Assembly (NCBI RefSeq): GCF_037975245.1
Contig: NC_092571.1
Coordinates: 8,218,501 to 8,282,500, forward strand
Length of the DNA stretch: 64,000 bases
Source of the DNA: Apostichopus japonicus
Lineage: Eukaryota; Echinodermata; Holothuroidea; Aspidochirotida; Stichopodidae
Direction: 5' to 3'
The position numbers and the translations under genes were made by a program. Under the pieces are notes generated by a model. The model was not told the origin of the DNA, did no database searches, and saw only the letters and a program-made list of their open reading frames with translations. This document shows, one piece after another, positions 15,723 to 62,632 of this stretch. Position 1 is the stretch's first letter. Every line of letters starts with the position of its first letter.

Positions 15723-16267
15723 CTGTCTACAGTGCACACTGCAGTCGAGTACCTTCATCTCATCGCAAATCTCATAACTTGGAACTGCTCAACAATATTC
15801 AACTTGCCTTTAGATTCACTAAGGTATTACTAGTGCAACATTGAAATTATCATTCTTCACACAAACCAATAGGTAAATTAGCAGGTAATTGATTAACTGA
15901 TTAATAAATGAGCCCCTTAGCAACAACCCCTGAAGATAACACCTACCTTCAATTGTGTATGCAAGTAAGGCTAGCCTTACTTGCCTGTCTAGAGTGCACA
16001 CTGCAGTCCAACCATATTCAACAGTGCACACTGCAGTCGAGTACCTTCATATCATTGCAAATCTCATTACTTGGAACTGCTCAACCATATTCAACTTGCC
16101 TTTAGATTCACTAAGGTATTACTAGGGCAAAATTGAAATTATCAGTCTTCACACAAAACAATAGGTTAATTAGCAGGTAATTAATTAATTGATTACTAAA
16201 TGAGCCCTTACAAACAGCTCCTGAAAGTAACACCCACCATCAACTGTGTATGCAAGTAAGGCTAGCC
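15723..16267. repeat. Diverged direct duplication of about 250 bp
   Basis: The segment at 15723-15976, beginning CTGTCTACAGTGCACACTGC and ending near GTATGCAAGTAAGGCTAGCC, is repeated at about 16020-16267 with scattered substitutions. Both copies contain TTCACTAAGGTATTACTAG and GGTAATTGATTAA-type segments. Confidence 0.85.
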
Positions 16268-21864: not shown

Positions 21865-21940
21865 CTTCAGAAATGTTCTCATCACTGGGCTCTGTTGCTC
21901 CTTCATACCAGCACAACAGTTCTGTTCCAATGGCAATAGT
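21865..21940 (-). CDS. PRDM2: PRDM2 exon d: end of PR/SET domain
   Basis: 76 bases between TTTTGGTTACAG (AG at 21942-21941) and donor GAAG|GTACGG (GT at 21864-21863). It reads TIAIGTELLCWYEGATEPSD then ENISE, matching human PIAPGEELLVWYNGEDNPE. ELLCWY is the invariant end of PR domains. It ends in phase 1 and joins in frame to the zinc-finger exon. Confidence 0.92.
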
Positions 21941-23075
21941 CTGTAACCAAAATATAATGGAAAAACAAATGTGTTAATATATCAACAACAGAGCCCGAGG
22001 GTCTCCAACTTTGAGGCAGCATTGACCGCGAAGAGAGGCGCAGAGCGAGCATAAACGTATGAAGCTCACAAAAATAGGAAGCAAATAAGGAAATTTATCA
22101 AAATAAATATGACAACAATGCACCGGTATCACTGCTAAATTACCTCCTCAATAACAAATCCAAATGTGGTATGGAAACATCCTTTTGTTTCTTGTTTCAC
22201 TTATGCACAAGTTACATCACAACCTTGTTTGAAAGAACAACAGTAAATCTCGATACCAAGTGAGAAACTGAGAAGAAAAATAACACACCCTCGGCTTGAG
22301 TTTGTAGCACTGGCAAAAAGTGAGGCTGGTAAATTTGTTCTCAATATCACCTAGGGTCAAATTGTGGGTTCATTATGACATTGCAGCCTTGCAAGATGGG
22401 AAATCGGTGACCATTTCGGTCAGTGGTAATGGTGAGGTTTGTAACCGGACTGTGAATGACAACTCCAGACGATTCATGATCATCCAGCACACATGATTTT
22501 AGTTGCCTCGCAACACCTTTGGGTTACCTTTCATATTCAATTCAAGTTCTGATAAATATCAGAGGCCCAGGTGGTTGTGTAACCAGCAGACTGTCTCTGG
22601 GTTCAATTCAAGGCAGATGTTTCAAGATTTTTTCACTGATTTATTTTCAAACAGAAGTGCCTATAGAAACACTCAGAAGTTTCTGCATACAACAACAGAC
22701 TTTCCTACACACTTTGGGTGTTAGGACGAGGACCCAGTAATTAGACCACCGGCAGATGGGCCAGTGGCAGGGTCGGTGCTTATGGTTACCAGTTGGGTCT
22801 ACACCCCGTAAAAGTTAGAGGGCAGTAGTTTGAAATCTGACAGGGTAGGCAGTTTTTAGCTTCTAGCCCAGCTCCAGTAACAGGGCTTTTGCCATCTGCT
22901 TTATATGTGATCAAACCAACTTGAAATGAGACTAGACGACATTAACTTTGACTGGCACACTGTACGAGCCATAAAACCACTGTCCCTCCGAACTTGCATT
23001 TAATACGAGGCTGTTTAAAAGTGGCAAAACAATCGCCCTCCCGGCAGAATACCTTCTACTGGGTATCGCACTTAC
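21941..23075. other. PRDM2 intron between exons c and d
   Basis: About 1.1 kb. Contains a weak tRNA-like stretch near 22560-22615 (GGTTGTGTAACCAGC, then GGGTTCAATTC), too degenerate to call. Nothing else recognised. Confidence 0.5.
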
Positions 23076-23231
23076 TTTGATTACTTTGTAGTAAATTTTT
23101 TTCTTATGCTGGACCGGGTGTAAGTTGTGGAGATCCTTCCCTGGTGCAGTTTTCACAAATCGCATCCAATTCCCTTTCGATGCGTCGCTAGCGTCTACGC
23201 AAAATAATCTGCGACCTTTTGGACCAATAAT
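23076..23231 (-). CDS. PRDM2: PRDM2 exon c: PR/SET core
   Basis: The acceptor is TTTCCTTACAG (AG at 23233-23232) and the donor AAA|GTAAGT (GT at 23075-23074). The exon is 156 bases, phase 0 at both ends. It contains FCVDASDASKGNWMRFV, clearly the PR-domain CIDATDPEKGNWLRYV block, then IYYKVIK matching IYYKTLK. Between them vertebrate NWACSGEE is replaced by KTAPGKDL without a gap, so the Cys implicated in RIZ1 methyltransferase activity is Pro here. Confidence 0.9.
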
Positions 23232-23464
23232 CTGTAAGGAAATGTAATATAAACTCGAGGTAACTCGAACGCCCTGAAAACAGTTCTACAAAAAAAATCC
23301 TTGTTACTTTTGAGGGATATCGTCGTTTGCATGAAACTTTATACAAGACTGCTGTCGGAAGTATTCACAAAATATCCTTACAAAATTTGAAGAATTCATC
23401 TCTGCCATACAAAATGCTAAATATATATAGATGATAATAAAATCATTGTTTTGTAAGTTTTTAC

Positions 23465-23568
23465 CTGCCAGGAGTAAGTGTCGTTTATAACTTCACTGCA
23501 CCTTTTTCGTTCCCCCTTGAAAGGTCCATACAACCTGCCTCTGTTGACTTGTTTCCTACTAAATACAC
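23465..23568 (-). CDS. PRDM2: PRDM2 exon b: first part of PR/SET domain
   Basis: The acceptor is TTTGTCCTGCAG (AG at 23570-23569) and the donor CAG|GTAAAA (GT at 23464-23463). The exon is 104 bases: two bases complete a Gly codon, then 34 codons. It reads VFSRKQVNRGRLYGPFKGER followed by KRCSEVINDTYSWQ, against remembered human VWATKPILKGKKFGPFVGDK and KKRSQVKNNVYMWE. The GPF turn and the aromatic-Trp end of the strand are kept. Confidence 0.9.
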
Positions 23569-24540
23569 CTGCAGGACAAAGAAAGAAAGAATTTAGTTAC
23601 GGTCAGTTTGTGGACATCAGCAAGCAGTCAAGCAAACTTTTAGGATCTTTTCATCAGGAATGACCCTAATCCTTCAGTGTCCATGCCCAGAATGCATAAA
23701 CTTCTTATAACTAATGAAGTCCAAAGCACAGTAAGGAAATGTCCAAACAAACGTAGTTCAAAGGACAGCAAGATTATCACCAGACCAGAATAGGTCTATA
23801 CTTTGCAAATGGTATATTCGGAAGGAGGAGGTGATGGGGAATGACACTGGAGGAGGGTTCGAGGGGGAGCATTGCTAAATATTGATAGGTAGATGGGGAG
23901 GTGCAAATAGAAGAGTTGAGACAGGTAAGAGAGGAGTGCAGTAAATACACTATAGTCTGGACTAAGGGCTTGTTGTTATAAAAATAACCTCTATTGTCAA
24001 ACAGAAAGAAAAAAATCTGACGTGGGAAAAATCCAACGACACATTTTTGGCGACTCACTTTTGGGTCACTCCCCCATGGTTGGCGGACCCGCCAGTGCAC
24101 GACTAGTCGACTACAATAAAATGTAAACTTATACCATAAAATTACCCACTAGATACATTATAATACAGTAGTCTACAGGAGTCCAAACGCTTTAAGCCAA
24201 GCACACTTCCCTAACATGGAGCTTGCTTTAAAGTTGACGGTGAGATTAATCACGAAAAGTGCCTTGGAATACATAAATGATGTTTTTACAGTATTTCTCT
24301 CATTACTTAAAATTTTGGCGAAGTCGCTCTTTCAGTATCTAATCGGTGCGGCCTTAGTAGACAATTGTTTTTAAATTTAGGGCAATTACATACATGTATG
24401 TAATATAATGCACAGAAATATGAAATTTTTATAATCCACTCCTGCCTGTAGTACTTGAAGCGTAAAACTTCGAGAAATGTTATTAAATATATGTAAATCT
24501 TCATCACATTCTAAGTAATTTCGAAGGTACGTCACAGTAG

Positions 24541-24753
24541 GCAATGCAGCATTCTTAATTCGTATCGATGATATTTGAAAGGAGAAATAATTAATATTTT
24601 CTTCTAAGAAATTTCGGACTGGTTCCACTTTGCTGACGCCAATTTTAATGCAGCATTCTTAATTTGTATCGATGATATTTGAAAAAAGAAATAATTAATT
24701 TTTTCATTCTAAGAAATGTCGGACTGGTTCCACTTTGCCGGCGCCAATTATCA
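24541..24753. repeat. Tandem duplication, about 106 bp, two copies
   Basis: The segment from ATGCAGCATTCTTAATTCGT to TTTGCTGACGCCAATT is followed directly by a second copy with a few substitutions (for example TTCGT to TTTGT, TTTGCTG to TTTGCCG). Confidence 0.85.
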
Positions 24754-27700
24754 TGGACGCCAATTTGAAGATTATGATCGTCACACATATGTACGGTTAT
24801 GTACAGTAATTGAACCATCAAAACTACCTGCATTGTACATCATGAAACAAAGAGATCTAAACACAACTCTCCATATGGTGCTTTTCACTCGGACTTAATA
24901 ATGCAAAATCAGCTGGTTTTACATGTAACTGTACAGCACAGTCAACATCTGCTGTACATATACCACACAACAACACAGTATACTGCTACAGTATGTTCAC
25001 TTATCAAATCTGCAATACTGTTTGTACACAGTACAATCACTCCACAGACTCTGGACACATTATAATAAACAACCAGCATTTCATATTAATTGATACATGC
25101 CAGACATCTTACCAGCCACTATCACACACACACACATATCAACAACAAAAAAATACATATCTGAGCTTCCTAGCCTTTTGTTATGTACCCACAAGTTTAA
25201 AAAAAAAACTTTAACACAGCCATGAGGCTGTGTGTTGAGAGTCCAATGGTTTTTTCTTAATCCAGTACACACAGAGGCAACTTTGAACTTGTACAGAAGG
25301 GAAGGTAAACAATACACTGGTGATAATGTCTCGTACAAATAATATACCTCTGTGGCTGCATTACCACGTAGCAGTTTGTATACCAATGCATATCTCCAAC
25401 AGTTAATCAGTGGCCTGGATCTGCAGTAACTACACACGTGCATTGATTCGTAGTATTCTGATACCACATGGTTTGTACAGGTAGGCACAGCTCACGTTCT
25501 GCGATGCAAGTCTGTACCCGAGATCAGGCCCGGAAAAACTTGCAGAAATATCCGTGGACGATGTTTTGCTAGAGCGGCCAATCTCTCGCTGTATAGTTGG
25601 CAAAGTGAACAACCCAGCAGTTCTGATAATTCTTGATTTTTAAATACCTCTGGGCTTTTTTCTGAATTCTGTATTAACATTTTCTTTCTATGTTATTTTT
25701 ACCTATTGATTTTCTTGCCCAGTGGTGAATCCTGTGAGAGCTATGTATTTCCTGTTAACCTGGCTCGCGAGGTTTCACAACCCTGCCCTTGATCTATTCA
25801 CTTCCTGTTTCGGATACATATAAAATAAACAATAACTTACATTGTATTATAACTTGAAGAGGCTCCCAAAAGCATAAAACATCACTTTATGTTACTTTCT
25901 CTGGTAAATGTTAACAAAGAATTTCTCCGGTAAAGTACAGGACTGCAAACACACGGATTAAGACACAGTAAGCGAGAATTTTTTCCATTATGAGTGGCTT
26001 GAATAATTCTAGGTGGTTTGGTTCTATCAAATTTTCGGTATTTGAATAAAATTTTGTTTTGGCACACAGTTTACACTGTCCTACACCTACAGTAGGACAC
26101 TTTCCTTGTCAGGCCTCAAAATTCAGGACACTTAAATTTACAAGATTCAATTTCTCCATTTGCCATTAGCAAGAGAAAACAAGGGGGGGGAGGCACTTGC
26201 ACTTTTCTGCCAGTGTGAAATGAGTGTTTAGTATTACAAGTTACAACAAGGAAAATGCAAGAAGGAATTTGATTTTAATCAGTACATTACCATTTTTGGG
26301 GCTAAAATTATGAAATTTGTTGGTGCTGTAACAATATGTGTCACAACAGAATCTATTATCGAAAGGCAGCAAGGTAATCTGGGCACAACAGTAACTTAAT
26401 CACTCAGTGAGAAAAAATACTGGTTCGAGCAGGGCGCCAGATGGAATGGAAGTCTCCCTGGGCAGTCAATTTCCCATTTATCCAGCTGTCAGCAATTCAT
26501 GTGCAATGCCAGATTGGTAGTGTGTTTAACCTTACCGCATCAAGGGTCCCGATACCCCGATGAGTGCAAAGAGTGTGGACCTGTTTTGCTTTCGCAGGCT
26601 GGTTTTAAATGTTTTGTGGGCCAGATATTGCCCGCAGACCATCTGTTGATATTAACTCCTGACATAGTTTGTCCAAAGTAAGAAGACAGCTATCTAGGTT
26701 TTTCAATTATAAATGGCTAACTTAACTGGTTATCCTGGTCCTGTGTGTAAGAGACTAACATGACAGGGACACCGAGAATATCCTACTGTAAGGCTTCAAG
26801 AAATTGATCAACGTCGATGGTGCTTGTTATAGGGAGTTGGGATCCTTAATTTTTTTTATGAAAAAGCTGTTATTTCCCTTAATAAAAGTGTCTCGACCAA
26901 TGACACAAAATGCCACACTGCCTTTCTGTTGGTACCTACAATATTGAACTGTATACTATTTACTCCAAGTGTTAAAAAGTAAAGAAACTTGTTATCCAAA
27001 ATTCCAAAATCCAGGAGCAGGTAAAAGTATCAAAATGTTTGCAAACCCTATGCAATGAGCAACCTTGGGGCACCCAAATTTTTTGTTCTTGGTTTTGGTA
27101 CATATTGCACTTTCTATTAAGGTTTTACAGAATTAAATTGTTAAAAGTAGACGTTTTCATTCATTTTTGGGGGGACGTTGAACAGGAAAATTTATAAATA
27201 ACTTCTTTTCAGAATGCCTTTTGTGGGCTCATAATTGTTCAAGGTCTCTATGGTTTATTACACCAGTCAAGGCATACTAAAGCTATTCATTAAGTTTGGA
27301 GGGCTTGAAAACTTCAATAGAACAATTTGCAATAAATATCTAATAATTTTGACCACCCCACAACTACAAAAAATTAAGTTCTGGCTGTCACCCAAAGCTG
27401 TTTCTCTACTACACATGTAGCTACTGTACGGGATAAGCGTCCACAATTGTCACACACAAATTACAAGCTACAAAAGAATCCAAAATTATTGCGGACCTAG
27501 AAGTGGTAATAACAATAACATTGCCAAAAAGTCTATGAGAGTATGAAAACTCATGGGCAAATCTACAATCACATTATAATAGCACCTCAAAGTTCCTTTC
27601 TGCATGACACTGCAAACATGCACAAAAACACCTATTTTGACAGCTCTGTATCTTCTCTTGGGGGAGGGGGAGGGGAAGGGGGAGGGTGAAGGGGGAGGCG

Positions 27701-30641
27701 GGAGGTCCAATATGTATCACAAATATGTCTGAATTATTTGCCACATTTTACACAGAGTGAGGAGGGAGAATGTACCGTCAAGCTACTGTAGCTAAAGTTC
27801 TGTGATAACAAATAAAGCTTTATCAGTCTTTAAATAGTACTTAGGAAATATAATTTCCAAAGTGAAAGGGGTTGGACTATTTGGGGTCAAATGTGTTTAC
27901 ACTATTTATCAGTTACTTTTTATTTGCTCAATTCATAGAGTAAAGAGCACCTCATTGTTTGCTATCAGAATTCGAAAGGAAGAAAGAAAGAAAGAAGGTC
28001 GATCCAGTCAGGATATATGCAGTACTTGTAACGGATTGCAGAAGGTGAGTAAGACAAATATACTAGACCAGTTAGAATGGAATTCGAACCAGTATGACCC
28101 AGGGACTACAAAGTCTAGGGACTTTTATGTTGTAAGTCCTGTACAGTAGGTTGTAGAAATTGCCAAGGCAAGGCTACCCTACCTTCCAACATATTAAAAC
28201 AGAAACATAGAAAACAGAAAGCATTAATTTCTACAAATAGCTCGTGAGGAGTAACAAGGGACCTGACAGCTTTTGTCTGTAATAAGGAGGGAGGAGGGGA
28301 GAAGTACCTGCACATTGGAATTCCTGAAACCGCTACACATACCCGGGCTGCTAGTTGACGGGTCACCTGGGAATCTAAATACACCCCTGAAAATACAGCT
28401 TATTAATGAGAATACTCATGGAGCCAGAGTAACTTACCAGATGTTTTAGAAATTGATGGAACAACGTGGTGAAAACCAAGCGATTACAGGATGGGTGCAG
28501 ATTTAGCATGTATTCCACCAGATAAACAAAACTGCACCAAAACACACTCCTAGAAACTTATAGTTGCTTTGGGTGGTAGAATGAGATGCGAGGGGTTATT
28601 GACCACCTGGGGGGGGGGGGGTCACTGAGGGTGTACTGTGCTGATACTCTAGACACAGGAGAGAGAGAGCGATGAGGCTGTGGGGCAACGGGTAGGCTAA
28701 GAAGCAAGGCAATTCCTTCTTCCCCTCATGAAACTCAACAGGTCGGACAGCACTGGAAGTGTCTTAAACCTACATGCACACATACATATGTGCATATTAT
28801 CATCCCGGTGTGACCTGGTTGTGCCCCCCTCCCCACCCCCATCTCCTTGCCATTATCTCACCATAGGGCGTACAGATCTCCAACTGCATCCTCGTTGCAT
28901 CCTCCCTCATATTTCCTTGCACTTTATCACTGGCTTTTTGTTTTGTATTCCAAACAGACTATTGTTGTACAATAAAATAACTTGCAAACTTTCTGGCTTA
29001 CAAGTCTCAAACACTGCTGCCTTGAAGCTTGCTGAAGACCCCCTGCAAATTCTCAGTTTTCTATTTGACCTGCCATACCACCACCCCACCCCCCAACCCT
29101 TTCTACCCCATCAAAATATCCCCATTCTGAAGCACCCTCTGCTCCAGCTACAAAAAACTGACTTGAACTAGCACACACTGTACACTATAGCAGGTCTACT
29201 ATGCTCCTGAAAAAAAATCAATCGCCCGACTATAGGAAATGTTAAGTTTAAAAACAAATATATTGATCGAGTCTCTCCTTGGCTATAGTCTCCTTAACAA
29301 TGGTACAATCACTCCTGGCAAAAATACACAATAATGTCATGCCCTCTTTGGTCATGAACCCTAACAAACATTTGCCAAATAACTTCACACCAATCAGGGT
29401 TGTGAGAGACAGAATTCTCTCCTTCTGTAAACAGTTGACTGGGGCAAACTTTTATTGGTCGTCCTTGGAGACAACCATATTTCTGTTCAGACAAGTCAGG
29501 TCAGCTGTGGAGGTTCGTTCAAAGTGTGCTACAGTGCCAGATCTTATGTCAAAATTCAGGTTGAATTGTAAGAAGAAGAAGAAAACCACCAGATAGGTAA
29601 AATGATAAATTGGTATTAGCCTCCATCTTTTTTTGGAGATACTGTGGACAACCCACATTCGCCTTTTTGGACAACCAAAGGTTAAAGGGCCCCTGGTTGT
29701 CCAAGAGACAACCAGAAAAGATCCTTTTGAAATTTTCCCTGCAGCATTATCACAAAGAAATTAACCAGAGAAACATTCTGTATTACTTTCTATGGTTGTA
29801 GGATGTGACCATATCTGTAAATGTCTTCAAGGGATGGTTGGGAAATGTTGGTAGAATCAAGCATCTAGCCATTAATTTCTGCTTTAAAGGAGCAGTAAAC
29901 CCGACTTCATCTACCTGATATGAAATTTAAGCATCATGAACAACCCCCTCCCAACAACCTTCCCCCTACCCCTACCTATCCCATTCCAGCCAATCTCACT
30001 TTCAGGAGAATCACATTTACAATTATCATAAACCTTTAATATGACAGACATGAAAAAAATCTCCATTTTGGGTGTTTTAAAGTTTTGCCCGGGGAGGGTG
30101 GGGGGAGGGGGGGGTCTGACATTTTGTAAATTTACGTACAGTACTGCCGCAGAATTTCTCCACTGATATTTTAATTGATCAAACTAGGATGCCATCCAAA
30201 TATTGTTCAATTCCAAAACGTTTATTGCCTAGACTCAGACACATTTTTTTCCCTCTCTATTCAAAGAATTTAGGTTGAAATTTACTTCTTTGTTTTCAAT
30301 TCTTGAAATCTTATCTCTAGCTATTCTAGGTGTCGACTGCATTGTCAGTTGGAGTTTTCATACATCACATACGGTGTGTGAAAAGACCAACAAACTCAAA
30401 GATGCAAAATCCGATTCAGAAAAACAGAAGAAAGATTGTCTTTTGCAACCTTGAGTGTGATTTTATTGGTTCTTGCCCCAGTGTAGACCTGTGCAAACAA
30501 ACACCATGTTTGGAAAGAATGACTTTTCTCCAACTGTACCATTCAAATGGGTAGTAGTGTAAATGAATCACTGGCATTTCTTTCTGATTTGGATTTTTTT
30601 TTTTTTATCATAAACAAAATTCTGAAAAAGCAAATGAAATT

Positions 30642-30713
30642 TTCGGCTAGCACCAGGATTTGAACCAGTGACTTCAGTACATGTTAGCTACAAACTGAGC
30701 CATCCAGCCCTTG
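30642..30713 (-). mobile_element. tRNA-like element (SINE head or tRNA pseudogene)
   Basis: The minus strand reads GGGCTGGATGGCTCAG, then TTTGTAGC, and ends with a B-box-like CTGGTTCAAATCC and GGTGCTAGCC. The order and spacing fit A and B boxes of a tRNA-derived sequence, but the acceptor stem pairs only partly, so it is probably the head of a SINE or a decayed tRNA. Confidence 0.5.
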
Positions 30714-30999
30714 GTTGGTACGTAGCAATCCCAAAATAGTAATTCCGTGCTGCTACTGGTTGCATACTTGTAAAGTTTTTGACTTTTTAACTTATTTTTA
30801 AAGGAATTTGAATATGCAAGCTGATAACCTACATTGCGATGGGATTTCAAGTATCAAAGAACATCAAAATCTTTACCGAAAACAACTCTGAAATAGCTGT
30901 CTAGAAAAAGAATATCAGCTGCATCATAAAAAATTAATAAAATATAAAGACTATTAATAAAAAAATAGGTAAAAAAGAAAAAAGGTTTTCTGTACTTAC

Positions 31000-31100
31000 C
31001 AATTTTATCTGGTTCCTGTAGTGAATCTCCAAATTCTAGCTCATTGGGTAAGTTCATTCCATCTGGGACAACTTCCATGCTCCCATGACATAGATGAGGC
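31000..31100 (-). CDS. PRDM2: PRDM2 exon a: N-terminus before PR domain
   Basis: Acceptor TTATGTTCAG (AG at 31102-31101), donor ATTG|GTAAGT (GT at 30999-30998), ending in phase 1. It reads HGSMEVVPDGMNLPNELEF then GDSLQEPDKIG, which aligns with the human LPEEVRLFPSAVDKTRIG that leads into the PR domain. The first ATG in the exon is at 31078-31076. Seven codons precede it in frame without a stop, so translation may begin in an unseen upstream exon; a second in-frame ATG follows six codons later. Confidence 0.8.
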
Positions 31101-33517
31101 CTGAACATAAATAACAAAACAGAGAAAAATTCTTCCACTAAAATCTTGATTTCAAACATTCTCCTTTTAATTTTGCCTGTTTTATATAATAATGATATCA
31201 TCTTTAAAAAAAAAAACGTTTTTCAGGAAAAACATTTGAAATTACCATCACTTAACCAAAGAGGATCAGCTCGATATGCAAGGTTATTGACTGAGAGAGT
31301 TTATAAAGAATAATTCACGGCCTGCTGGGCGCTGGCGATGTGATGACATTTTTTAAGTGTGACTTGATCACATCTTCAGAGTACAGTAGCTAAAGAAGAA
31401 ATCCTCAAAAAATTAGAATCATTAAGACCCAAAGAGCTTTAAATAATATATACATCAATATCTATATTATACATCAATATCTCTGTGAGTTATTTATCAT
31501 TCGCATCTCCATTACATCCATGGATTAGTTACGAATGGTTACATAGTGTGATTATATTACTGTAACTGATAGCATCGTACAGGGTAAATATTTAAATGGG
31601 TTTTTCCCCCTCTGGTTGGTCCGTCAGACATCCAGGTCTTGGTTCGTCTGAACTGCAAATTTGGTTGCCCGAAAAAAGACAAAAAAAATGTAGCAAACTT
31701 ACAAAGAGCCGATTCTTTGTACACTGTTGAAGGGATGCTATGTCAGTTCTGGTGATTAGAATCAGCTTTAGGCAAATTATAGTATGCTATAATTGCTAGA
31801 AGTTTTCAAAAAGTACTTTCCTGGAGGTCTTTTTCTCTCCAAATTATTCTCAGACATTTTTAGAAGGAACACACAAGATGACTGAATGTCCCTGTGAGGA
31901 AAATTTCCTTGAAGGTTGTAATAAAAACAGTTTAAGAATTTTGACCATAGGTGACCATATTTGAATATCTAGCATATTTGGGGCCAAATACAGCATACCT
32001 TTAAACTCAACTTTCAGGTGGATCATAAAGGTAAAGCACTATTTTTTTTTTCAGGAAATCTCTAAAAGTGATTGAGGAAATATACAAATGATCAGTTTAA
32101 CTATTTTTTTTTGGGGGGGGGGGGCCAGTGTAATCTGAAATTTGATGGAAACAACTAGCCATCTGTCAGAAATTCTGATTTTACTGATTTTGGTTGTCTA
32201 TACAGTGTACATGTATATATTGTTAGTCTTGATAGACCATTTAAAAGTTGCCCCAGTCTTGATATGTTTAACACCAACACCAAACCTGTTTGGTAACATT
32301 ACTGTGCTAATGAACTTAGAGTTTGCTTTCAAAAAGCAATTAACTGAATTGGCAACATATGTACAGTATATCTGACACCAACATCAATACATTTTGGTAA
32401 CATAACTTAAAAATCGCAATTATGACACAAACAATGTCAACAAATGAAAATCACAGGGACCCATTTTACACTGTTATTAGATAAGCATATTAAAAAAAAA
32501 AAATTACAAAATATAAATTATAAAAATATAAATTATAAAATATAATTTAAAAAAATTATCAAAATGGTTTACTTAAGTACTGTATATAACCAATATCTGT
32601 AGTTAGTGTACAATATGTGTCGTTACAAAGCATGGTACAATAGTGATGTTTTCAACATGTGAAAAGGTCACCACACAACTATCAAAGAAAAGTTACTGGC
32701 ATGGGATGTGCTTACTCAACCAAAGCGAGAGATCCCAACAGTATATATGCATTTATGCACAGAGTGCAACTTAGTTACGTTTGTTCCTAATACAATGGTA
32801 CTATACAGTTTGTTTGTCAGACTGGTTCAAGATGTCCTGTTTGTCCTTAACCAGTTACAATTGAAGGTAACTGAACCCACTACTGTACATGGACTCTTTC
32901 CTTAATTAGAACCACCAAAACAATTCGAAAGCAGGGAATTAACATCTGTCCCCTCTGTTCGGATTAATACCCTAAGAAGTGGAGGGGAAGGCGGGGGGGG
33001 GGAGGGGTTGGTTGCAGAATCTTTTGATCTTCAACTTAACATCTCATCTAATGACATATATATTTGCAAATTTAAGGTACAAGACATTCAGATTTCCTTG
33101 AATGTATTCATCTATGTACGCACAACTGGAGTGATAAAAAAAAGTAAGAGAAGGGTCGCAGACTATTTATAACGAAAGGTTGGTTTCCGACCAAGGCAAC
33201 TCAGAGCTTAAATCATCTCCCATATCACTACATGGACACAGCAGAGTAGGCGAAGCATGGTTGTAAGTAGACCTACATGCAACTTAGTACAGTACCTGCT
33301 GACAGGTTATAAATTAAATAATTAGTGTCCAACAGTCTGTGTCAAAGTTAGCCATTGCGAAAGCTCTGAAACATGTCTATTATACTATACTGTACTAACT
33401 ATGGTTTCTGTGTACTAAAACTGCTATGTTTACATACAGTCTTTATCCCTCGTTTTTAGCAATTTGCTAATTTCGTGGACCATTCTTGCCATGCGATTAA
33501 TCTAATAGTACTCTATG

Positions 33518-33789
33518 CTGTGCTCAAAGACGCATAAATTATGATGAAAAGCAAATGCTATCTCTATAATTTTATTACAAACTGTAGCAGTACCAGATGG
33601 ACCGTGGAAGTGCACTGTATGTAGTGTACAGTACGTATACCAGTTCACATGTGCTGTGCTCAAAGACGCATAAATTATGATGAAAAGCAAATGCTATCTC
33701 TATAATTTTATTACAAACTGTAGCAGTACCAGATGGACCGTGGAAGTGCACTGTATGTAGTGTACAGTACGTATACCAGTTCACATGTG
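33518..33789. repeat. Exact 136-bp tandem duplication
   Basis: The unit beginning CTGTGCTCAAAGACGCATAA and ending CCAGTTCACATGTG occurs twice in direct succession with no difference that I can see, so the event is recent or the copies are being homogenised. Confidence 0.92.
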
Positions 33790-35941
33790 CACAGTTTATG
33801 TACCAGTATATACATATATCATAACACTTATAATACGATTGATTGATAATTTAACGAATTTCCTCTCCTCGCCTGATAACTTTACAGAAGTACTAGGTTC
33901 CTCTTTAAACAGTAAACCAAACTGCTACTTGAAAACTTTGCACCTATTTTGAGCTCACCCCCATGCAGGTGGGTACTTTGCATAATTTAAGCTTTTATGT
34001 GAGGAGTCTGAAGCACTCATTTCCTCAACCAACAACTTTCTACAGTAACTATTGTACTGTAGAGTGAAATGTCTCACCAGTGCAAGAATGCTAGCTGAGA
34101 TTTAACTCGAGAGTAACTGAACATCTGGTGTACACATCATTAAGAAGTAACCCTGACAAAACAAGTACGTAAATAAAAAAAAATACCAACAAATCCTTCT
34201 AACACCAACACTGCTATCATAAAACCTAGAGACTATTTGGACACACTGGGGTTGTTCTAAGCATCGAGGATAAATTTTGAGTGGACATAATAAAGCTCTA
34301 ACAACATTGGTCTCGATATGTTTCACCTTCCAGGGTGACTTTTTCACGGAAAACCACATCAACCGTTGCCCTATAGACTCCCACCAGATATCATTACTAT
34401 CTTTATGTTACTTCTGAAACAATTATTCATACTTTTTTAAAAGATCTGATTACACGGTCATGTTATTTCGACATATTTTTGAAAATTTGTACTCCAATGG
34501 CTGCATGATCTTAGAACCATGTGTAGTTAGGCTACAAACTCTAAATTCACTGTGCCACAATTCTCTGCAGTATGTGTGATCAGCAGTTTCGTGTTAAGTG
34601 CTACTGATGGTATGTACCTGGTATATAAAGGTACCGTATATATTGCTAAATTACAGTAAATAATTATAGAGTGATGTCAACAGGAGTACTGCTGCAGCTA
34701 CTAATACTGTCAATATAATAATAAAGTAGCTTACTACAGTACAAGTGGCCAACCCTCCACCCCCCCCCTCATAAAAAAATATATATTAAAATAATAATGC
34801 AAATAATTAAAAATTGTAAATATTGGGAAAAGCTGGAAGCCGGCTTTGCATACATTCAGGAGGATTAAAATGGCTGGTTGACTGAATCTTTCAATTGTCT
34901 TGCAACAAACATTAATAATGCCTGTGATATTTTGTAAGGGATTAGCAGGCATGAAAGATGTTAATCCTGCAATTTGCTATAAAGGCGGTTGTCAGTCAAA
35001 TGAGATTAAGTTGTGAAGACTACTGTGAATGCATTCATGCATAATCAATGAATTTTACAGACTCACAGTGAATTCCCAATAAAGCTAACATGGGTGGAAA
35101 ACACGCTGCATGCACAAACAGCAGCCTATAGGGATTTCTGTACACTGTGTAGAATGATATAAATCATATGTGAGCTCTGTTTATTCCCCAAGTTAAACTT
35201 TCAACCATGCTACAAAATGGGCAGGCCTATAAAATCACCTCTTTTAATTTGCTTCATGAACTAAAATGATCACGCGGAACATTTAAAAGACGTATGAAAA
35301 TATTCGGCAATGCTGTGTCCAAAGTGCGATCAATATTTGTTAAGGTTAGGCCTTAAATGGTTTTCATTGCACTGTGAGATGTTGCCAGCTAGCACAGGCC
35401 CTATCATGTGCAATTGTCTCCAAATTCCACTTCACTTTCACCAAGAACCCTTCATTTTAGTTGATTTGTTTTTGTTTTTTTATCAAAACTGATGTATTGT
35501 GTTACATAGTGCACCGTTATTGTCATGGCCGCTGGGGATCCAATTTAACTTTCAGGAACTAAGCAATGCAAACTAGACATAAATTGTGTCCTCTGACTCT
35601 TTGCAACTAGCCTACATGTAACTGTAAGCCTATATGTGTCTCAATGGTCTATCATGGCAGTAACTTAAACTTCCTTGGATGCAAACTTAGCTTTATTTTG
35701 GCTTTGTTTCTGGAAATCCATTGAATTCCTGACTGGCTGATGCAACAGACGGATCAACTTGTGTTCCTCACACTTGAGATACAGTTAACGATAAGCCTAA
35801 CTGATGGAAAATCTGGATAGGCTAATACTAAATCTAAGTCAAGCACACGTAGAAATATTAAACGCCTATTGTAGCCTATAATGTTACCGGACAATCACAA
35901 CATCGCTCTGGGTGAAATACAAGCATAGTTACCAGCCTAGA

Positions 35942-48296: not shown

Positions 48297-48553
48297 CGTG
48301 TATGTATGTGTGTATGTATGTATGTATTTTAGATCCTCCGGCAAGCAGGAACTCGTGAAGAAGCCTCATTGGCTTATCAAGGTGGCAAGCTGACCAAAGT
48401 CAGTCTCTTACATTCATATTTAAAGTCCATGATTATGAATTGTCCATTGTTAACAACTCTGTAACTGGACGACATACATTAATCTTGGAGTGACTCGAAC
48501 TGGAGACCTTATGATTGAAGGCATTGGCGTTAACCACTGAGCTAACACTCCTA
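48297..48553 (-). mobile_element. tRNA-derived SINE, family 2, copy 1
   Basis: The minus strand starts AGTGTTAGCTCAGTGGTTAA (A-box-like), then GGTCTCCAGTTCGAGTCACT (B-box-like). A body follows with GTCGTCCAGTTACAGAG and GAGGATCTAAAATACATA, and it ends in a (CATA)n tail. A second copy is at 51657-51898. The head has been amplified into a tandem array next door. Confidence 0.88.
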
Positions 48554-50144: not shown

Positions 50145-50784
50145 CTATTTACAAAAAGAGCAAAATTGATTTTACCGATTATCTGTAAGATACACAAAAT
50201 TTACTAATATTACAATAATAAAGAGACTTTTAAAAATATACTTTCTTTAGAAACAAATTTCAGAACAAACTGTTTTGAAATTCTCAAAATTCTGTTCCTC
50301 AAACACTTTCAAGTACTTATGGCAAATGCAAAAGACCTATCGGCAAAACTTCCAAAAATGTTCAAATTGTGCTTTTTTATTGTCATGAAATTTGATTGGT
50401 CGAGCTACTGACCTACATTTCTCTGAGCTTTTAAGTAAATCTATCTTCTAGTGAATCTGTACTTGTATTTAGTTCACATAGTTTACTGTACTCCACCCTG
50501 GGTTTTGTACTCCACCCTGGATTTTGTACTTGCACTAATATTTGGGTGTTTGAAAACATAGTGTTGATACTAGCACAGGATTATGCACTCCTACTCCGGT
50601 GTAGGGCTTTGTAAGCCTACCCATACTCATATTGAGGGAAGTTCTAATTTTAATTGTACTCATGCTGTTGTACTCTCGTAATAGAAGTGTACTATGAAAC
50701 AATGCCTACAATACCGCACTACAGACTATGGCCTTTAACATACAGTACCAAGAACTGTTGTACTCTCCTAATACCGGGGCTATG

Positions 50785-51057
50785 TCAATGTTCCCAGGGT
50801 CCAATGTTCCCAGGGCTCGATGTTCCCAGGGTCCAATGTTCCCAGGCCCCAGGGTTCGATGTTTCCAGGGTTCGATGTTCCCAGGGTTCGATGTTCCCAG
50901 GGTCCAATGTTCCCAGGGTTCCATGTTCCCAGGGTTCGATGTTCCCAGGGTCCGATGTTCCCAAGGTTCTTTGTTCCCAGGGTCCAATGTTCCCAGGGTC
51001 CGATGTTCCCAGGGTTCGATGTTCCCAGGGTTCGATGTTCCTAGGGTTTGATGTCCC
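50785..51057. repeat. 16-bp minisatellite, forward arm
   Basis: About 17 copies of GTTCCCAGGGTTCGAT with substitutions. It is the inverted counterpart of the array at 51199-51528. The MFPGSNVPRV-type frames on both strands are translations of this repeat, not genes. Confidence 0.95.
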
Positions 51058-51198
51058 TTTTTTTTCAAAAATCACCCGAAGGGACGTTGTTCAGTAAGAG
51101 CCGCACAGAAGTGTTGACCTGAGAGTCCAGAGTTCCACGAGGCCGAGAATTAAGAGGGTCCGCTTTGGTGCTGCCCGACCGTGCTCGGGGACAGGCTC

Positions 51199-51528
51199 AG
51201 ACCCTGGGAACATCGAACCATGGGAATATCGAGCCCTGGGAACATCGGACCCTGGGAACATTGGACCCTGGGAACATAGAACCCTGGGAACATTGAACCC
51301 TGGGAACATTGAACCCTGGGAACATAGAACCCTGGGAACATCGAACCTTGAGAACATCGAACCCTGGGAACATCGATATTTCTGGGAACATCGAACCCTG
51401 GGAACAACGAACCTTGGGAACATCGAACCCTGGGAACAACGAACCTCGTTTTCATCGTCAGCCATTGAAATAACACGAAAACGGGGAATATCGAACCCTG
51501 GGAACATTGAACCCCGGGAACATCGGGT
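51199..51528. repeat. 16-bp minisatellite, inverted arm
   Basis: About 19 copies of ATCGAACCCTGGGAAC, the reverse complement of the 50785-51057 unit, with one interruption near 51447-51483. Spacer between the arms is about 140 bp of unrelated sequence. Confidence 0.95.
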
Positions 51529-51545
51529 AGACCCCGTCTACCAGT

Positions 51546-51635
51546 TTACCATGCTATACATATGCTACTACGAAAATAGAGTTAGTCTTTAACGAACCAT
51601 GAACACTCCTGCACCAATAAGAAAGCTGTGACCTG
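51546..51635 (-). pseudogene. Decayed partial duplicate of the M7 exon
   Basis: The plus strand CACCAATAAGAAAGCTGTGA and its flanks match 51946-52035, the last bases of the M7 exon and the start of its intron, about 400 bp away. The reading frame (AFLLVQECSW) survives but the donor is altered. A SINE now separates parent and copy. Confidence 0.75.
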
Positions 51636-51656
51636 TATATTCATACCCAGGGGAAT

Positions 51657-51898
51657 TGTATGTATGTGTGTGTATATATGTATATATGTATTTTAGATCC
51701 TCCTACAAGCAGGAACTCGCTAACAAGCCATCATTGGCTTATCAAAGCTGCAAGCTGACCGAAGTCAGTCTCTTTGATTCATATTTTAACGTCCAAGATT
51801 ATGAATTGTCAACAACTCTGGAACTGGACGACATACATTAATCTTGGGAGTGACTCGAACTCGGGACCTTATGACTAACCACTGAGCTAACACTCCCT
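51657..51898 (-). mobile_element. tRNA-derived SINE, family 2, copy 2
   Basis: Shares with 48297-48553 the head (GTGTTAGCTCAGTGGTTAG), the body and the TACATA-type tail. The region between A and B boxes is shorter. It separates the M7 exon from its decayed partial copy. Confidence 0.88.
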
Positions 51899-51995: not shown

Positions 51996-52146
51996 CAAGA
52001 ACACTTCTGGACCAATAAGAAAGCTGCGATCTGAATGGCTGCTTGGATGGCAACGTGTGATGCAAAGGAAACGATGACAGGAGATGACATTAACTTGGTC
52101 GGAGGTCGAACCGGAGTTAATCCCGAATTAGCTGGACTCCTTGCGA
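51996..52146 (-). CDS. ATP13A3: ATP13A exon: M6-M7 loop and M7
   Basis: Acceptor TTTCTTTATCTCCAG, donor TCTTG|GTATGT. 151 bases. Reads LTPVRPPTKLMSSPVIVSFA, then a hydrophobic helix ending FLLVQKCSW, corresponding to human [20 protein letters not shown] and FFWVKQQPW. A decayed copy of its 3' part lies at 51546-51635. Confidence 0.9.
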
Positions 52147-54480: not shown

Positions 54481-54553
54481 AGCACATAACCAGGACGATG
54501 CTAAGGAAAATATCAATGTACAGAAACTGGAAATCACCCAGGTACAGTAGGAC
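54481..54553 (-). CDS. ATP13A3: ATP13A exon: M6 region
   Basis: Acceptor TTACCTCTGATAG, donor TGCT|GTGAGT. 73 bases. Reads VLLYLGDFQFLYIDIFLSIV, matching human [20 protein letters not shown]. The short exon lies just beyond the minisatellite. Confidence 0.92.
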
Positions 54554-54669
54554 CTATCAGAGGTAACACATGGAACCATTGGAAAAATAAATTATTAAGG
54601 AAAAACAACTTTATTATTAAACGCAGGCATGTTAGCATCAATCTGGAGAACTGCTTCATTTGCTGTGGT

Positions 54670-57299
54670 CTTACTATGTAAAGTAACAGGCTGTGACCTA
54701 CTGTGTTAAGTACTATTACAGGCTGTGACTAACTGTGTTAAGTATTATTACAGGCTGTGACTTGCTGTGTTAAGTATTAATACAGGCTGTGCCTTACTGT
54801 GTAAAGTATTATGACAGGCTGTGACCTACTTTGTTAAGTATTATGACAGGCTGTGACTTACTGTGTTAAGTATTATCACAAGCTGTGACTTACTGTGTTA
54901 AGTATTATGACATGCTGTGACTTGCTGTGTTAAGTATTATGACAGGCTGTAACTTGCTGTGTTAAGTAATATGACAGGCTGTAACTTACTGTGTTAAGTA
55001 ATATGACAGGCTGTGACTTACTGTGTTAAGTATTATGACAGGCTGTGACTTACTGTGTTAAGTAATATGACATGCTGTGACTTACTGTGTTAAGTAATAT
55101 GACAGGCTGTAACTTGCTGTGTTAAGTATTATGACAGGCTGTGACTTACTGTGTTAAGTATTAATACAGGCTGTGACTTACTGTGTTAAGTATTAATACA
55201 GGCTGCGCCTTACTGTGTTAAGTATTATGACAGGCTGTGACTTACTGTGTTAAGTATTAATACAGGCTGTGCTTTACTGTGTTAAGTATTAATACAGGCT
55301 GTGCCTTACTGTGTTAAGTATTAAGACAGGCTGTGACCTACTGTGTTATGTATTAAGACAGGCTGTGACTTACTGTGTTAAGTATTATGACAGACTGAGC
55401 CTTACTGTGTTAAGTATTATGACAGGCTGAGCCTTACTGTATTAAGTAATACGACAGGCTGTAACTTGCTGTGTTAAGTATTATGACAGGCTGTGACTTA
55501 CTGTGTTAAGTATTATGACAGGCTGACTTACTGTGTTAAGTATTATGAAGGGCTGTGATTTACTGTGTTAAGACAGGCTGTGACTTACTGTGTTAAGTAT
55601 TATGACAGGCTGTGACCTACTTTGTTAAGTATTATCACAAGCTGTGACTTGCTGTGTTAAGTATTATGACAGGCTGTGACTTACTGTGTTAAGTAATATG
55701 ACAGGCTGTAAATTGCTGTGTTAAGTATTATGACAGGCTGTAACTTGCTGTGTTAAGTACTATTACAGGCTGTGACTTACTGTGTTAAGTAATATGACAG
55801 GCTGTGACCTACTTTGTTAAGTATTATCACAAGCTGTGACTTGCTGTGTTAAGTATTATGACAGGCTGTGACCTACTGTGTTAAGTATTATGACGGGCTG
55901 TGACTTACTGTGTTAAGTATTATGACAGGCTGTGACTTACTGTGTTAAGTATTAAGACAGGCTGTGACTTACTGTATTAAGTATTATGACAGGCTGTGAT
56001 CTAGTGTTAAGTATTATGACAGGCTGTCACTTACAATGTTAAGTATTATGATGGGCTGTGACTAACTGTGTTGAGTAGTAAGACAGGCTGTGACTTACTG
56101 TGTTAAAGTATAATGACAGGCTGTGACTTACTGTGTTAAGTATTATGACAGGCTGTGACTTACTGTGTTAAGTATTATGACAGGCTGTGACTAACTGTGT
56201 TAAGTATTATGATGGGCTGTCACTTACAATGTTAAGTATTATGATGGGCTGTGACTAACTGTGTTGAGTAGTAACACAGGCTGTGACTTACTGTGTTAAG
56301 TATTATGACAGGCTGTGACTTACTGTGTTAAGTATTATTACAGGCTGTGACTAACTGTGTTAAGTATTATGACAGGCTGTAACTTATCATGTTAAGTAAT
56401 ATGACAGGCTGTGACCTACTGTGTTAAGTATTATGACAGGCTGTGACCTACTGTGTTAAGTATTAAGACAGGCTGTGACTTACTGTGTTAAGTATTATGA
56501 CAGGCTGAGCCTTACTGTGTTAAGTATTATGACAGGCTGAGCCTTACTGTGTTAAGTATTATGACAGGCTGAGCCTTACTGTGTTAAGTATTATGACAGG
56601 CTGTGACTAACTGTGTTAAGTATTATGACAGGCTGTAACTTATCATGTTAAGTAATATGACAGGCTGTGACCTACTTTGTTAAGTATTATCACAAGCTGT
56701 GACTTGCTGTGTTAAGTATTATGACAGGCTGTGACTTACTGTGTTAAGTATTATGACAGGCTGAGCCTTACTGTGTTAAGTATTATGACAGGCTGAGCCT
56801 TACTGTGTAAAGTATTATGACAGGCTGAGCCTTACTGTGTTAAGTATTATGACAGGCTGTGACTAACTGTGTTAAGTATTATGACAGGCTGTAACTTATC
56901 ATGTTAAGTTATATGACAGGCTGTGACCTACTGTGTTAAGTATTATGACAGGCTGTGACCTACTGTGTTAAGTATTAAGACAGGCTGTGACTTACTGTGT
57001 TAAGTATTATAACAGGCTGAGCCTTACTGTGTTAAGTATTATGACAGGCTGTCACTTACAATGTTAAGTATTATGATGGGCTGTGACTAACTGTGTTGAG
57101 TAGTAAGACAGGCTGTGACTTACTGTGTTAAAGTATTATGACAGGCTGTGACTTACTGTGTTAAGTATTATGACGGGCTGTGTCTTACTATGTTAAGTAT
57201 TATGACAGGCTCAGACTTACTGTGTTCAGTATTAAGACAGGCTGTCACTTACTGTGTTAAGTATTATGACATGCTGTCACTTACTGTGTTCAGTATTAT
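54670..57299. repeat. 32-bp minisatellite of about 80 copies carrying a 5' splice site
   Basis: Plus-strand unit AGGCTGTGACTTACTGTGTT AAGTATTATGAC, 32 bp, with variants (GAGCCTT, AACTTGC, GACCTAC). On the minus (sense) strand each unit reads ATACTTAACACAGTAAGT. This is the last bases of the adjoining exon (ATACTGAACACA) plus its GTAAGT donor. The array fills nearly the whole intron between the M5 and M6 exons. Confidence 0.97.
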
Positions 57300-57381
57300 G
57301 ACCGATGTAAACTGAATCATACTGTACAGAGCCATGAACTTGAAAGCTGCGAATGAAGTAGTCAGAGCTGCACGGCCCTCC
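57285..57381 (-). CDS. ATP13A3: ATP13A exon: M5 region, donor inside a minisatellite
   Basis: Acceptor TTTTGTTTTGAAG, donor ATACTGAACACA|GTAAGT (GT at 57284-57283). 97 bases: one base, 32 codons. Reads [30 protein letters not shown], matching human [30 protein letters not shown] without gaps. The last 12 exon bases and the donor form the first unit of the 32-bp minisatellite that fills the following intron. Confidence 0.92.
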
Positions 57382-58077: not shown

Positions 58078-59845
58078 ATTATTTCATCTAGTTTCATTCA
58101 ATGCTTTACTTTTGCTCTTTGGACAATGTAATTAGGCAAGTTCAGGTTAGCTCCAGGAGCAGAAAGTAAACTATCTTAAAAATCAGCCTGGGTAAAAATG
58201 ATAAAAGCTGGAGTTTGAATTTTTAAGGTGAAATAATTTTGTCATCTCAATTTTAGAACTATCCTAGACGTTGTCTGAGACAAGTCCATTGGCCCCAACA
58301 GAAGCTACCATTTTAGGTTACAAATCTTTGAAGGACAATTTCCAATATTCCAGGAGCAAAATTAATGCTCAGCATCTGTTTACATAGAACATATTCATTA
58401 TAATCTCCCTTGCACACATTAATCGTCGCAAATAGCTTTCATAAAGTATGTAAGCATATATATATATATATATTTAGGAATCATTTCAAATTATTTCATC
58501 TAGTTTCATTCAATGCTTTACTTTTGCTCTTTGGACAATGTAATTAGGCAAGTTCAGGTTAGCTCCAGGAGCAGAAAGTAAACTATCTTAAAAATCAGCC
58601 TGGGTAAAAATGATAAAAGCTGGAGTTTGAATTTTTAAGGTGAAATAATTTTGTCATCTCAATTTTAGAACTATCCTAGACGTTGTCTGAGACAAGTCCA
58701 TTGGCCCCAACAGAAGCTACCATTTTAGGTTACAAATCTTTGAAGGACAATTTCCAATATTCCAGGAGCAAAATTAATGCTCAGCATCTGTTTACATAGA
58801 ACATATTCATTATAATCTCCCTTGCACACATTAATCGTCGCAAATAGCTTTCATAAAGTATGTAAGCATATATATATATATATATTTAGGATTCATTTCA
58901 AATTATTTCATCTAGTTTCATTCAATGCTTTACTTTTGCTCTTTGGACAATGTAATTAGGCAAGTTCAGGTTAGCTCCAGGAGCAGAAAGTAACCTATCT
59001 TAAAAATCAGCCTGGGTAAAAATGATAAAAGCTGGAGTTTGAATTTTTAAGGTGAAATAATTTTGTCATCTCAATTTTAGAACTATCCTAGACGTTGTCT
59101 GAGACAAGTCCATTGGCCCCAACAGAAGCTACCATTTTAGGTTACAAATCTTTGAAGGACAATTTCCAATATTCCAGGAGCAAAATTAATGCTCAGCATC
59201 TGTTTACATAGAACATATTCATTATAATCTCCCTTGCACACATAATCGTCGCAAATAGCTTTCATAAAGTATGTAAGCATATATATATATATATATTTAG
59301 GAATCATTTCAAATTATTTCATCTAGTTTCATTCAATGCTTTACTTTTGCTCTTTGGACAATGTAATTAGGCAAGTTCAGGTTAGCTCCAGGAGCAGAAA
59401 GTAAACTATCTTAAAAATCAGCCTGGGTAAAAATGATAAAAGCTGGAGTTTGAATTTTTAAGGTGAAATAATTTTGTCATCTCAATTTTAGAACTATCCT
59501 AGACGTTGTCTGAGACAAGTCCATTGGCCCCAACAGAAGCTACCATTTTAGGTTACAAATCTTTGAAGGACAATTTCCAATATTCCAGGAGCAAAATTAA
59601 TGCTCAGCATCTGTTTACATAGAACATATTCATTATAATCTCCCTTGCACACATAATCGTCGCAAATAGCTTTCATAAAGTATGTAAGCATATATATATA
59701 TATATATTTAGGAATCATTTCAAATTATTTCATCTAGTTTCATTCAATGCTTTACTTTTGCTCTTTGGACAATGTAATTAGGCAAGTTCAGGTTAGCTCC
59801 AGGAGCAGAAAGTATGTTAGCATATATATATATATTTAGGAATCA
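58078..59845. repeat. 411-412-bp tandem array, four full copies and a truncated fifth
   Basis: The word CATCTAGTTTCATTCAATGC recurs at 58085, 58497, 58909, 59320 and 59731, giving periods of 412, 412, 411 and 411. Copies differ at only a handful of positions. The unit is non-coding and ends in an (AT)n block. The fifth copy has lost about 300 bp: it jumps from GCAGAAAGTA straight to TGTTAGCATATATA. Confidence 0.97.
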
Positions 59846-59997: not shown

Positions 59998-60147
59998 TCA
60001 GCATCCATAGCCTTAGTGGTTAGGGTGTCAGCCTTAAAGCGGGAGGCCCGGGTTCGAATCCCGGTGGAGACTGGAAGTTTTTTCACTGTTCTTGATTTTC
60101 CTACTCATTATGATTTCAATTATATGTGTATATATATATATATATAT
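59998..60147 (+). mobile_element. tRNA-derived SINE, family 3, copy 1
   Basis: Head ATCAGCATCCATAGCC, A-box-like CTTAGTGGTTAGGGTG, B-box GGGTTCGAATCC, then TTTTTTCACTGTTCTTGATT and an (AT)n tail. The tRNA half is well kept but lacks a matching acceptor stem. Confidence 0.88.
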
Positions 60148-60188: not shown

Positions 60189-60324
60189 ATATATATAAAT
60201 GAAAATCGTAATGAGTTGGAAAATCAAGAACAGTGAAAAAACTTTCAGCCTCCACCGGGATTCGAACCACAGGCCTTCCGCTCTGTACGCGAACACCCTA
60301 ACCACTAGGCTATGGACGCTGATT
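60189..60324 (-). mobile_element. tRNA-derived SINE, family 3, copy 2
   Basis: Inverted copy: minus strand reads AATCAGCGTCCATAGCC, CTAGTGGTTAGGGTGTTCG, GGTTCGAATCCCGGTGGAG, then TTTTTTCACTGTTCTTGATT and a TATATA tail. Directly after its head, 60325-60385 is a plus-strand 3' fragment of the same family. Confidence 0.88.
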
Positions 60325-62018: not shown

Positions 62019-62368
62019 CTGTAAAATTGTAATTATTTAAGCTAAAATGATGATAAAAAAAATATATTTTCTCAATACGTGCAACTGCACAGAATGTATT
62101 TTTTTCATAGCTCTAGGTATTAATAGTTAAACATGATAAAACAGAGTGAAGCAAATTGTAAGCGTTCCTCTTTTTAATTTTTATTTCAACATCCGTTTTC
62201 CATAACCAACGGGTCAGTTTTAAATTAAAGCAAAACATGATACACCTACTCACTGTGCCCAGCCCTAAATTGAGTCCTACTTAATGCCATTAACAGCCAC
62301 AGATACCACAAAGAGTTCACAGGACATGATTTCTAATGGAATCCTCCAAGAAGTTACTGTAAGATGGC

Positions 62369-62430
62369 TTACCTGTTAATATGATTGTCCTCTTCTCAGC
62401 AGCGTGAAGAAGATGGGAGACTGTCACAGT
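62369..62430 (-). pseudogene. Partial duplicate of the TGDN-side ATP13A exon
   Basis: 62 bases nearly identical to 62504-62565, including the donor (ACAG|GTAAGC). It keeps an open frame reading HLLHAAEKRTIILTG, but no acceptor or upstream exon half is present: the match stops abruptly at a poly-G run on the minus strand. Likely a pseudo-exon from a local duplication. Confidence 0.85.
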
Positions 62431-62507: not shown

Positions 62508-62632
62508 CTGTTAACATGATTGTCCTCTTCTCAGCAGCGTGAAGCTGATGGAAGACTGTCACAGTTTCCGGTTTGAGTTGATTCTGCATCACAAGCAGCC
62601 CGACAAAACTCAGCCCCGACTCTAATTTGGTT
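62508..62632 (-). CDS. ATP13A3: ATP13A exon: leads into TGDN motif
   Basis: Acceptor TTTTATAACAG, donor ACAG|GTAAGG (GT at 62507-62506). 125 bases. Reads FVGLLVMQNQLKPETV then FHQLHAAEKRTIMLTG, against human FMGLIIMQNKLKQETP and LHKANIRTVMVTG. The TG of TGDN is at the exon end. A partial copy of this exon's 3' half lies 135 bp further on at 62369-62430. Confidence 0.92.

Follow-up and report, generated by a model that had tools for sequence, protein, structure and literature searches.

A border-derived 32-bp minisatellite with DNA-level features of lancelet mirages in an ATP13A-type gene of the sea cucumber Apostichopus japonicus

Tandem duplications that span exon-intron borders are described in lancelets, where those of the globin genes were named mirages after the Adh3 case (PMC3087553). 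According to the available part of that report, many mirage repeats, though not all, carry splice signals, their length is unstable, the boundaries of the clusters escape homogenisation, and regular splicing is reported to be undisturbed; a second report, as far as its available text goes, adds PGBD5 and troponin C to the lancelet list (PMC3902484). Variable minisatellites, with units of 30 bp on average and about four units on average, are described in the accessible portion of a study of human genes in segmental duplications, some of them at exon-intron boundaries, where they affect splicing and possibly cause novel introns (PMC2812944), so that border repeats as such, on this partial text, are not confined to lancelets. 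Two further sources, in the parts at hand, trace intron gain to AGGT-containing exon sequence that was duplicated in tandem in the genome (PMC4974935; PMC3443670), and CeRep25B and other intronic minisatellites have been linked, in the excerpt available, to alternative splicing in Caenorhabditis elegans (PMC4039745). Searches of the open-licence literature yielded mirage-type arrays from lancelets only and no echinoderm array of this kind, and an echinoderm case would widen the range of mirages beyond lancelets. We discuss below a candidate for such a case.

The window, a stretch of 64,000 nucleotides from the sea cucumber Apostichopus japonicus, carries an ATP13A-type (P5B) ATPase gene on its minus strand; it is the 3' half that is included, and eleven exons were placed. 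The family profile of ATP13A/P5B, the GDGAND region and a frame maintained across introns all identify it: joined together, exons c, d, M5, M6 and M7 encode 219 aa without interruption, and this frame hits TIGR01657 (ATP13A2 family) at 2.1e-74, with a score of 250.7 bits that lies below the whole-protein cut-off of 618.25, the gene being partial. A 136-aa exon join aligns with solved structures that bear the name Polyamine-transporting ATPase 13A2, with E of about 7e-45, and the M5/M6 junction is free of gaps in the ATP13A2 alignment, where 18 residues of the window face SVLILYT/INTNLGDLQFL (slashes mark splice borders). Exons y, a, b and g gave weaker profile matches, as the exon alone or as its open frame; exons i and j, whose placement by eye relied on splice signals and resemblance, gave none in family-profile searches of each exon alone at E up to 1. 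The parts of the gene that matter here are the following.

62508..62632, minus strand: exon a, whose 3' border (62565-62503) is duplicated
57285..57381, minus strand: M5 exon, 97 nt, ending GTC ATA ATA CTG AAC ACA (VIILNT)
57279..57284, minus strand: authentic M5 donor GTAAGT (ACA/GTAAGT, GT at 57284), giving an in-frame splice to M6
57271..57302, minus strand: border unit, the last 18 exon nt plus the first 14 intron nt, end unit of the array
54662..57270, minus strand: 82 downstream units, the last partial, from TRF and alignment
54554..57284, minus strand: M5 intron, 2731 nt
54554..54661, minus strand: unique 3' remainder of the M5 intron, 108 nt, with the acceptor ..CTCTGATAG
54481..54553, minus strand: M6 exon, from profile and structure alignment and the splice join
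51996..52146, minus strand: M7 exon, part of the c-M7 open frame

A preliminary description of this DNA had placed the end of M5 at a GTAAGT donor, had described the following intron as almost wholly a 32-bp repeat whose unit includes the word CTTAAC, and had proposed that the array started from the exon border itself, and all of this was borne out. The donor at 57284 closes homologous coding sequence and joins M5 to M6 in frame. TRF reports a 32-bp tandem array of 82.1 copies with 88% matches (54686-57302), and wrap-around alignment resolves 83 units, of which 82 lie beyond the border unit and the last, ending at 54662, is partial. The array occupies 96% of the intron, and CTTAAC occurs 70 times in the intron. 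On the sense strand the unit reads CATAATACTTAACACA/GTAAGTCACAGCCTGT, with 18 exon-derived and 14 intron-derived nt. VIILNT is still spelled by the exon-derived part of the consensus, and the border unit has CTG where 78 of the 82 downstream units have CTT.

An origin of the array at the exon-intron border is supported by sequence comparison. The final 18 nt of the exon equal the unit at 17 of 18 positions, as against 15 of 18 for the best of 20,000 dinucleotide-shuffled units, and the 18 exon nt upstream of them match at 6 of 18. Two other ATP13A genes of this genome, at 6.66 and 10.05 Mb, have an M5 that ends VIIMNT/GTAAGAAC with the donor GTAAGA, and no border copies were found in the 1469 nt of their downstream sequence that were searched; the exon end therefore does not need the array. 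Being about 94% identical over their two longest pieces, these genes make one witness rather than two, and they are paralogues from the same genome, not another species. It is the combination of an exon end that is homologous coding sequence with a paralogous exon end lacking border copies that supports the border origin, and within this genome no unit was seen beside a different exon end. What is left of the intron suggests that the ancestral M5 intron would have measured about 120 nt, made up of the 108 unique nt at the 3' end and about 12 nt at the 5' end.

At 12.01-12.03 Mb of contig C11, at a distance of 3.75 Mb, a search of the genome (671.6 Mb in 35 contigs) found the locus a second time. 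All eleven exons have the same length in this 12.02-Mb copy and keep their GT donors, M5 is identical at 97 of 97 nt, and exons c to M7, one open frame in each copy, show 15 synonymous and 5 non-synonymous codon differences of 219, a mostly synonymous pattern by which both copies look functional. Its M5 intron measures 953 nt, with 26.9 repeat copies according to TRF and 27 units by alignment, so that array length stands at 83 against 27 units, border unit counted in both copies. Both arrays have CTG in the border unit and the same partial unit at the distal end, but of the interior unit types just one recurs exactly, which indicates that the interior has turned over. The copies stay colinear past the gene, with 97.8% identity along 5 kb that cross the window's zinc-finger gene, and elsewhere identity is mosaic, with long pieces at about 84 to 97%; a 12.9-kb match between the copies stands at 94.9% and contains many identical open frames. 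The gene pair at 6.66 and 10.05 Mb on C11 repeats the order of the pair at 8.27 and 12.02 Mb. We explain each locus pair by tandem duplication on the megabase scale or by a second haplotype that was retained, and lean to the haplotype; under either origin, array length differs and the exon does not.

Set beside the lancelet mirages of Adh3, BflGb6, BflGb9, PGBD5 and troponin C, which in the available text likewise consist of tandem, border-spanning intronic units (PMC3087553; PMC3902484), the M5 array has units that hold both sides of the border (18 exon and 14 intron nt), a splice signal in many units, though not all (GTAAGT in 33 and GT in 68 of the 82 downstream units), a length that is unstable between two locus copies, be they alleles or paralogues, and boundary units that have escaped homogenisation, with their CTG and partial distal unit shared around a turned-over interior. 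By these DNA-level features the array belongs with lancelet-type mirages. It differs in dimensions from the BflGb6 mirages, given in the same partial source as 3 and 6 units of 150-160 bp, against 83 units of 32 bp here, and its unit falls within the 10-72 bp given there for Adh3 (PMC3087553). The hosts differ as well, an echinoderm in place of lancelets. Like the human minisatellites, as the available part of that study portrays them, it differs between gene copies; unlike them, it lengthens an existing intron, by an estimated 20-fold or so, and leaves the exon unchanged (PMC2812944). Splice signals are copied within a gene here as in the tandem-duplication route to intron gain, to judge from the portions of those papers at hand, yet an existing intron has been lengthened and no new intron or exon is seen (PMC4974935; PMC3443670). 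CeRep25B is also an intronic minisatellite with splicing-relevant words; its regulatory heptamers lie near alternative exons, and the excerpt available describes no derivation from an exon border (PMC4039745).

We consider it probable, with good confidence, that the array is a neutral border minisatellite of the mirage kind, with exon definition selecting the first donor. In the ancestral intron of some 120 nt, a 32-bp segment made up of 18 nt of exon and 14 nt of intron on either side of the border would have been tandemly duplicated; with the exon still defined by its first donor, additional copies would all have landed in the intron, where they would be free to grow or shrink in number by slippage or unequal exchange. 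Turnover would be confined to internal units, and both end units would remain as they are, the border unit under coding selection. The fixed ends and turned-over interior of the two arrays, as expected for array turnover, favour this reading. The spliceosome is predicted to settle on the first donor because exon definition couples it to the M5 acceptor and the body of the exon and because, transcribed first, it has co-transcriptional priority; the other copies would be ignored, or would yield transcripts with a stop 19 nt past the border, which would be degraded. Use of the first donor is also the parsimonious prediction, since array length varies (83 against 27 units) while M5 is identical in both copies.

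How demanding that choice would be depends on the downstream copies of the donor, the decoys, and here the preliminary description went too far in stating that every unit keeps a strong GTAAGT. Only 33 of the 82 downstream units retain it and 49 have lost it; the donor position reads GT in 68, GC in 10 and neither in 4. Thirty of the 33 carry the 9-mer of the authentic donor, ACAGTAAGT, and three carry ATTGTAAGT, and the two nearest decoys, 32 and 64 nt downstream of the authentic donor, are intact. In the 12.02-Mb copy GTAAGT occurs 10 times, authentic donor included. Scored on a 5' splice-site matrix, three decoys come out slightly ahead of the authentic donor and 30 equal it, so that a strict choice would have no donor-local explanation. 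Hiding of decoys in hairpins was considered and dropped, the order of predicted accessibility flipping with the folding span: units have ACTTA..TAAGT complementarity, which the border unit, with its CTG, is without, and same-word decoys were predicted to be more accessible than the authentic donor in 27 of 30 cases with a window of 80 and a span of 40, in 5 of 30 with 150/100 and in 2 of 30 with 200/150.

The expectation, voiced in the same description, that use of a downstream donor would usually shift the frame understates the effect: every extension meets an in-frame TAA at intron nt 19-21 (VSDSMS, then stop), shared by all downstream-donor extensions, and the 12.02-Mb copy has its stop likewise at intron nt 19. 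Every downstream donor would thus truncate the protein after M5, which makes it irrelevant that 32 is no multiple of 3. For the same reason the idea that the gene tolerates variation dependent on array length is not supported at the protein level. The locus offers a natural experiment on 5' splice-site choice, in which the authentic donor of a gene with functional-looking exons faces 30 copies of its own 9-mer, beginning at a distance of 32 nt, and its 83- and 27-unit versions in one assembly would make the rules of first-donor choice, the decay of mis-spliced RNA and effects of length measurable.

A regulated array of poison donors, in which length-dependent use of downstream donors leads to the early stop and to decay and so tunes ATP13A output, is very improbable. 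The 30 downstream 9-mers equal to the authentic one, the early stop that awaits every downstream use and the difference of 83 against 27 units would all suit it; it sits poorly with the 49 of 82 units without GTAAGT, with an event rate at the donor columns that is neither below that of the rest of the unit, as preservation of donor words would require, nor significantly different from it, and with interior unit types hardly common to both copies. We think it very unlikely, too, that the array evolved or was co-opted as a length-dependent control acting through the tens of U1-binding donor words in the intron, which would either send transcripts into stop and decay in proportion to array length or retain U1 on the intron and thereby suppress the poly(A) word AATAAA at 54615; if it did, ATP13A output would be a heritable function of repeat number, and the donor borders of this gene would be recurrent sites of such arrays.

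Selection that removes decoys, with donors in the array decaying faster than neutral sequence, strikes us as equally doubtful. At the donor columns 51 copies deviate, which places them at rank 4 of 32 six-column blocks (permutation p 0.065 against random six-column sets) and leaves weak room for selection against decoys. Counted as parsimony events, on a weak tree built on 32 columns, the donor block falls to rank 11 of 32, its 2.5 events per column comparing with 2.06 for exon-derived columns and 1.88 for the remaining intron-derived ones (permutation p 0.31), and event counts thus give no support to selection on donor words; the excess at the level of copies is put down to amplification of variant blocks. 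Nor is the region next to the border cleared of intact donors: going away from the border, successive blocks of 20 units hold 7, 8, 9 and 9 of them, the nearest two decoys included. Donor words are neither preserved nor clearly purged, with no significant excess or deficit of mutation events.

That the array is an assembly artefact, or sits in a non-functional gene copy, is highly unlikely. The locus does stand twice on one contig with mosaic identity, and the 6.66/10.05-Mb pair, repeating the order, may likewise consist of retained haplotypes; the units, however, differ among themselves (88% matches), unlike a simple assembly duplication, and in both copies c-M7 forms one open frame and the eleven exons keep their lengths and GT donors. 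That the array, or a mobile minisatellite, came first and converted or invaded the exon end, as the near identity of exon end and unit might invite one to think, is extremely unlikely, given that the window outside the array nowhere matches the unit even when 5 substitutions are allowed, that a genome search with 1 kb of array listed matches at this locus and its second copy and none elsewhere (at least these two, such counts being lower bounds), that homologous exon ends occur without border copies, and that VIILNT aligns with VLILYT of ATP13A2.

Other borders of ATP13A genes have been duplicated as well.

62368..62430, minus strand: copy of the exon a tail with donor GTAAGC, 63 nt at 93.7%, 135 bp downstream
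51565..51638, minus strand: copy of the M7 tail and intron head (52036-51963), 74 nt at 84%, 398 bp downstream
C11, about 919.5-920.0 kb: duplication of the M5 border of the ATP13A gene at 0.919 Mb

The 0.919-Mb gene, with 72% identity across the 86 aa matched, has an M5 that ends GTCATCTTGTACTGG/GTAAGT; in the intron after it the exon tail and its donor recur in three more copies, all degraded (76 nt at 80%, 33 nt at 88% and 59 nt at 75%), about 100 to 230 bp apart. Their spacing and unit are unlike those of the 32-bp array, and we therefore read them, from the sequence, as an independent event at the same M5 splice site; another ATP13A gene duplicated at this border with a different unit points to border hot spots. 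The M7 copy in the window has GTTCGT where M7 has GTATGT, and a SINE-like repeat (51657-51896) sits between M7 and that copy. At the M7 border of the 12.02-Mb copy there is a 152-bp repeat of 2.4 copies (C11:12016026-12016394) with two further GTATGT donors. Side observations at these borders are that the SINE-like repeat recurs at 48299-48551, 81% identical and with a tRNA-like start judged by eye, and that only a shorter ATGTTAACAG-GTAAGC copy is present in the 220 nt after exon a of the 12.02-Mb copy.

In the window gene, a nearby border-spanning copy accompanies 3 of the 11 donor borders and none of the 11 acceptor borders, two of the eleven exons tested (i and j) having been placed by eye. 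As a control, three chaperonin (CCT) genes showed 0 of 18 duplicated donors and 0 of 18 duplicated acceptors over 19 exons, with one donor and one acceptor skipped for insufficient flank; CCT donors were picked with the 5' splice-site matrix, one of them scoring poorly, and for acceptors the border was set where the profile match starts. These controls also held a 20-nt and a 14-nt match, neither of which spans the border. In the other ATP13A genes, examined at donors only, border copies occur at 1 of 15 donors, a count of 16 rows less one with exons d and M5 fused, of which 12 come from the near-identical pair. Fisher's test gives p 0.045 for the donors of the window gene (3/11) against those of the CCT genes (0/18), and p 0.15 for all donors (4/44) against acceptors (0/29). 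A general excess of border duplications was rejected as a claim, since rotation tests in this repeat-rich region were not significant (P 0.90 for at least 3 of 11 donors with arrays counted, P 0.13 for at least 2 of 10 other donors outside arrays).

Several minor features complete the picture of the window and its genome. The sole AATAAA of the M5 intron, at 54615 on the minus strand, lies just past the array with a T-rich stretch after it, and the word is also present in the 12.02-Mb copy. A 412-bp tandem repeat (58078-59814, 4.2 copies at 99%), single in the 12.02-Mb copy, is a recent expansion within the ATP13A-type gene. Two 16-bp arrays (50788-51054 and 51201-51445) have units that resemble mutual reverse complements, and at the cut-off applied nothing in the 12.02-Mb copy corresponds to 50776-51538. 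Rfam and tRNA scans of the window returned two tRNA-like Rfam matches, at 60001-60072 and 60247-60319, and nothing beyond them; a perfect 136-bp duplication (2.0 copies) lies at 33516-33790, and a 1345-aa open frame with C2H2 zinc fingers at 17156-21190 on the minus strand. Elsewhere in the genome, contig C29 holds COX1 fragments in separate pieces (14745-31219), possibly nuclear mitochondrial DNA or a misassembly. Contig C35 (16,099 bp) is the mitochondrial genome, with cox1 found by profile, tRNAs by ARAGORN and the remaining protein genes named by eye from translations; its order of protein and tRNA genes, cox1-R-nad4L-cox2-K-atp8-atp6-cox3-S(-)-nad3-nad4-H-S-nad5-nad6(-)-cob-F...E-T...nad1-I-nad2, is the echinoderm order common to sea urchins and sea cucumbers, which sets this animal apart from lancelets.
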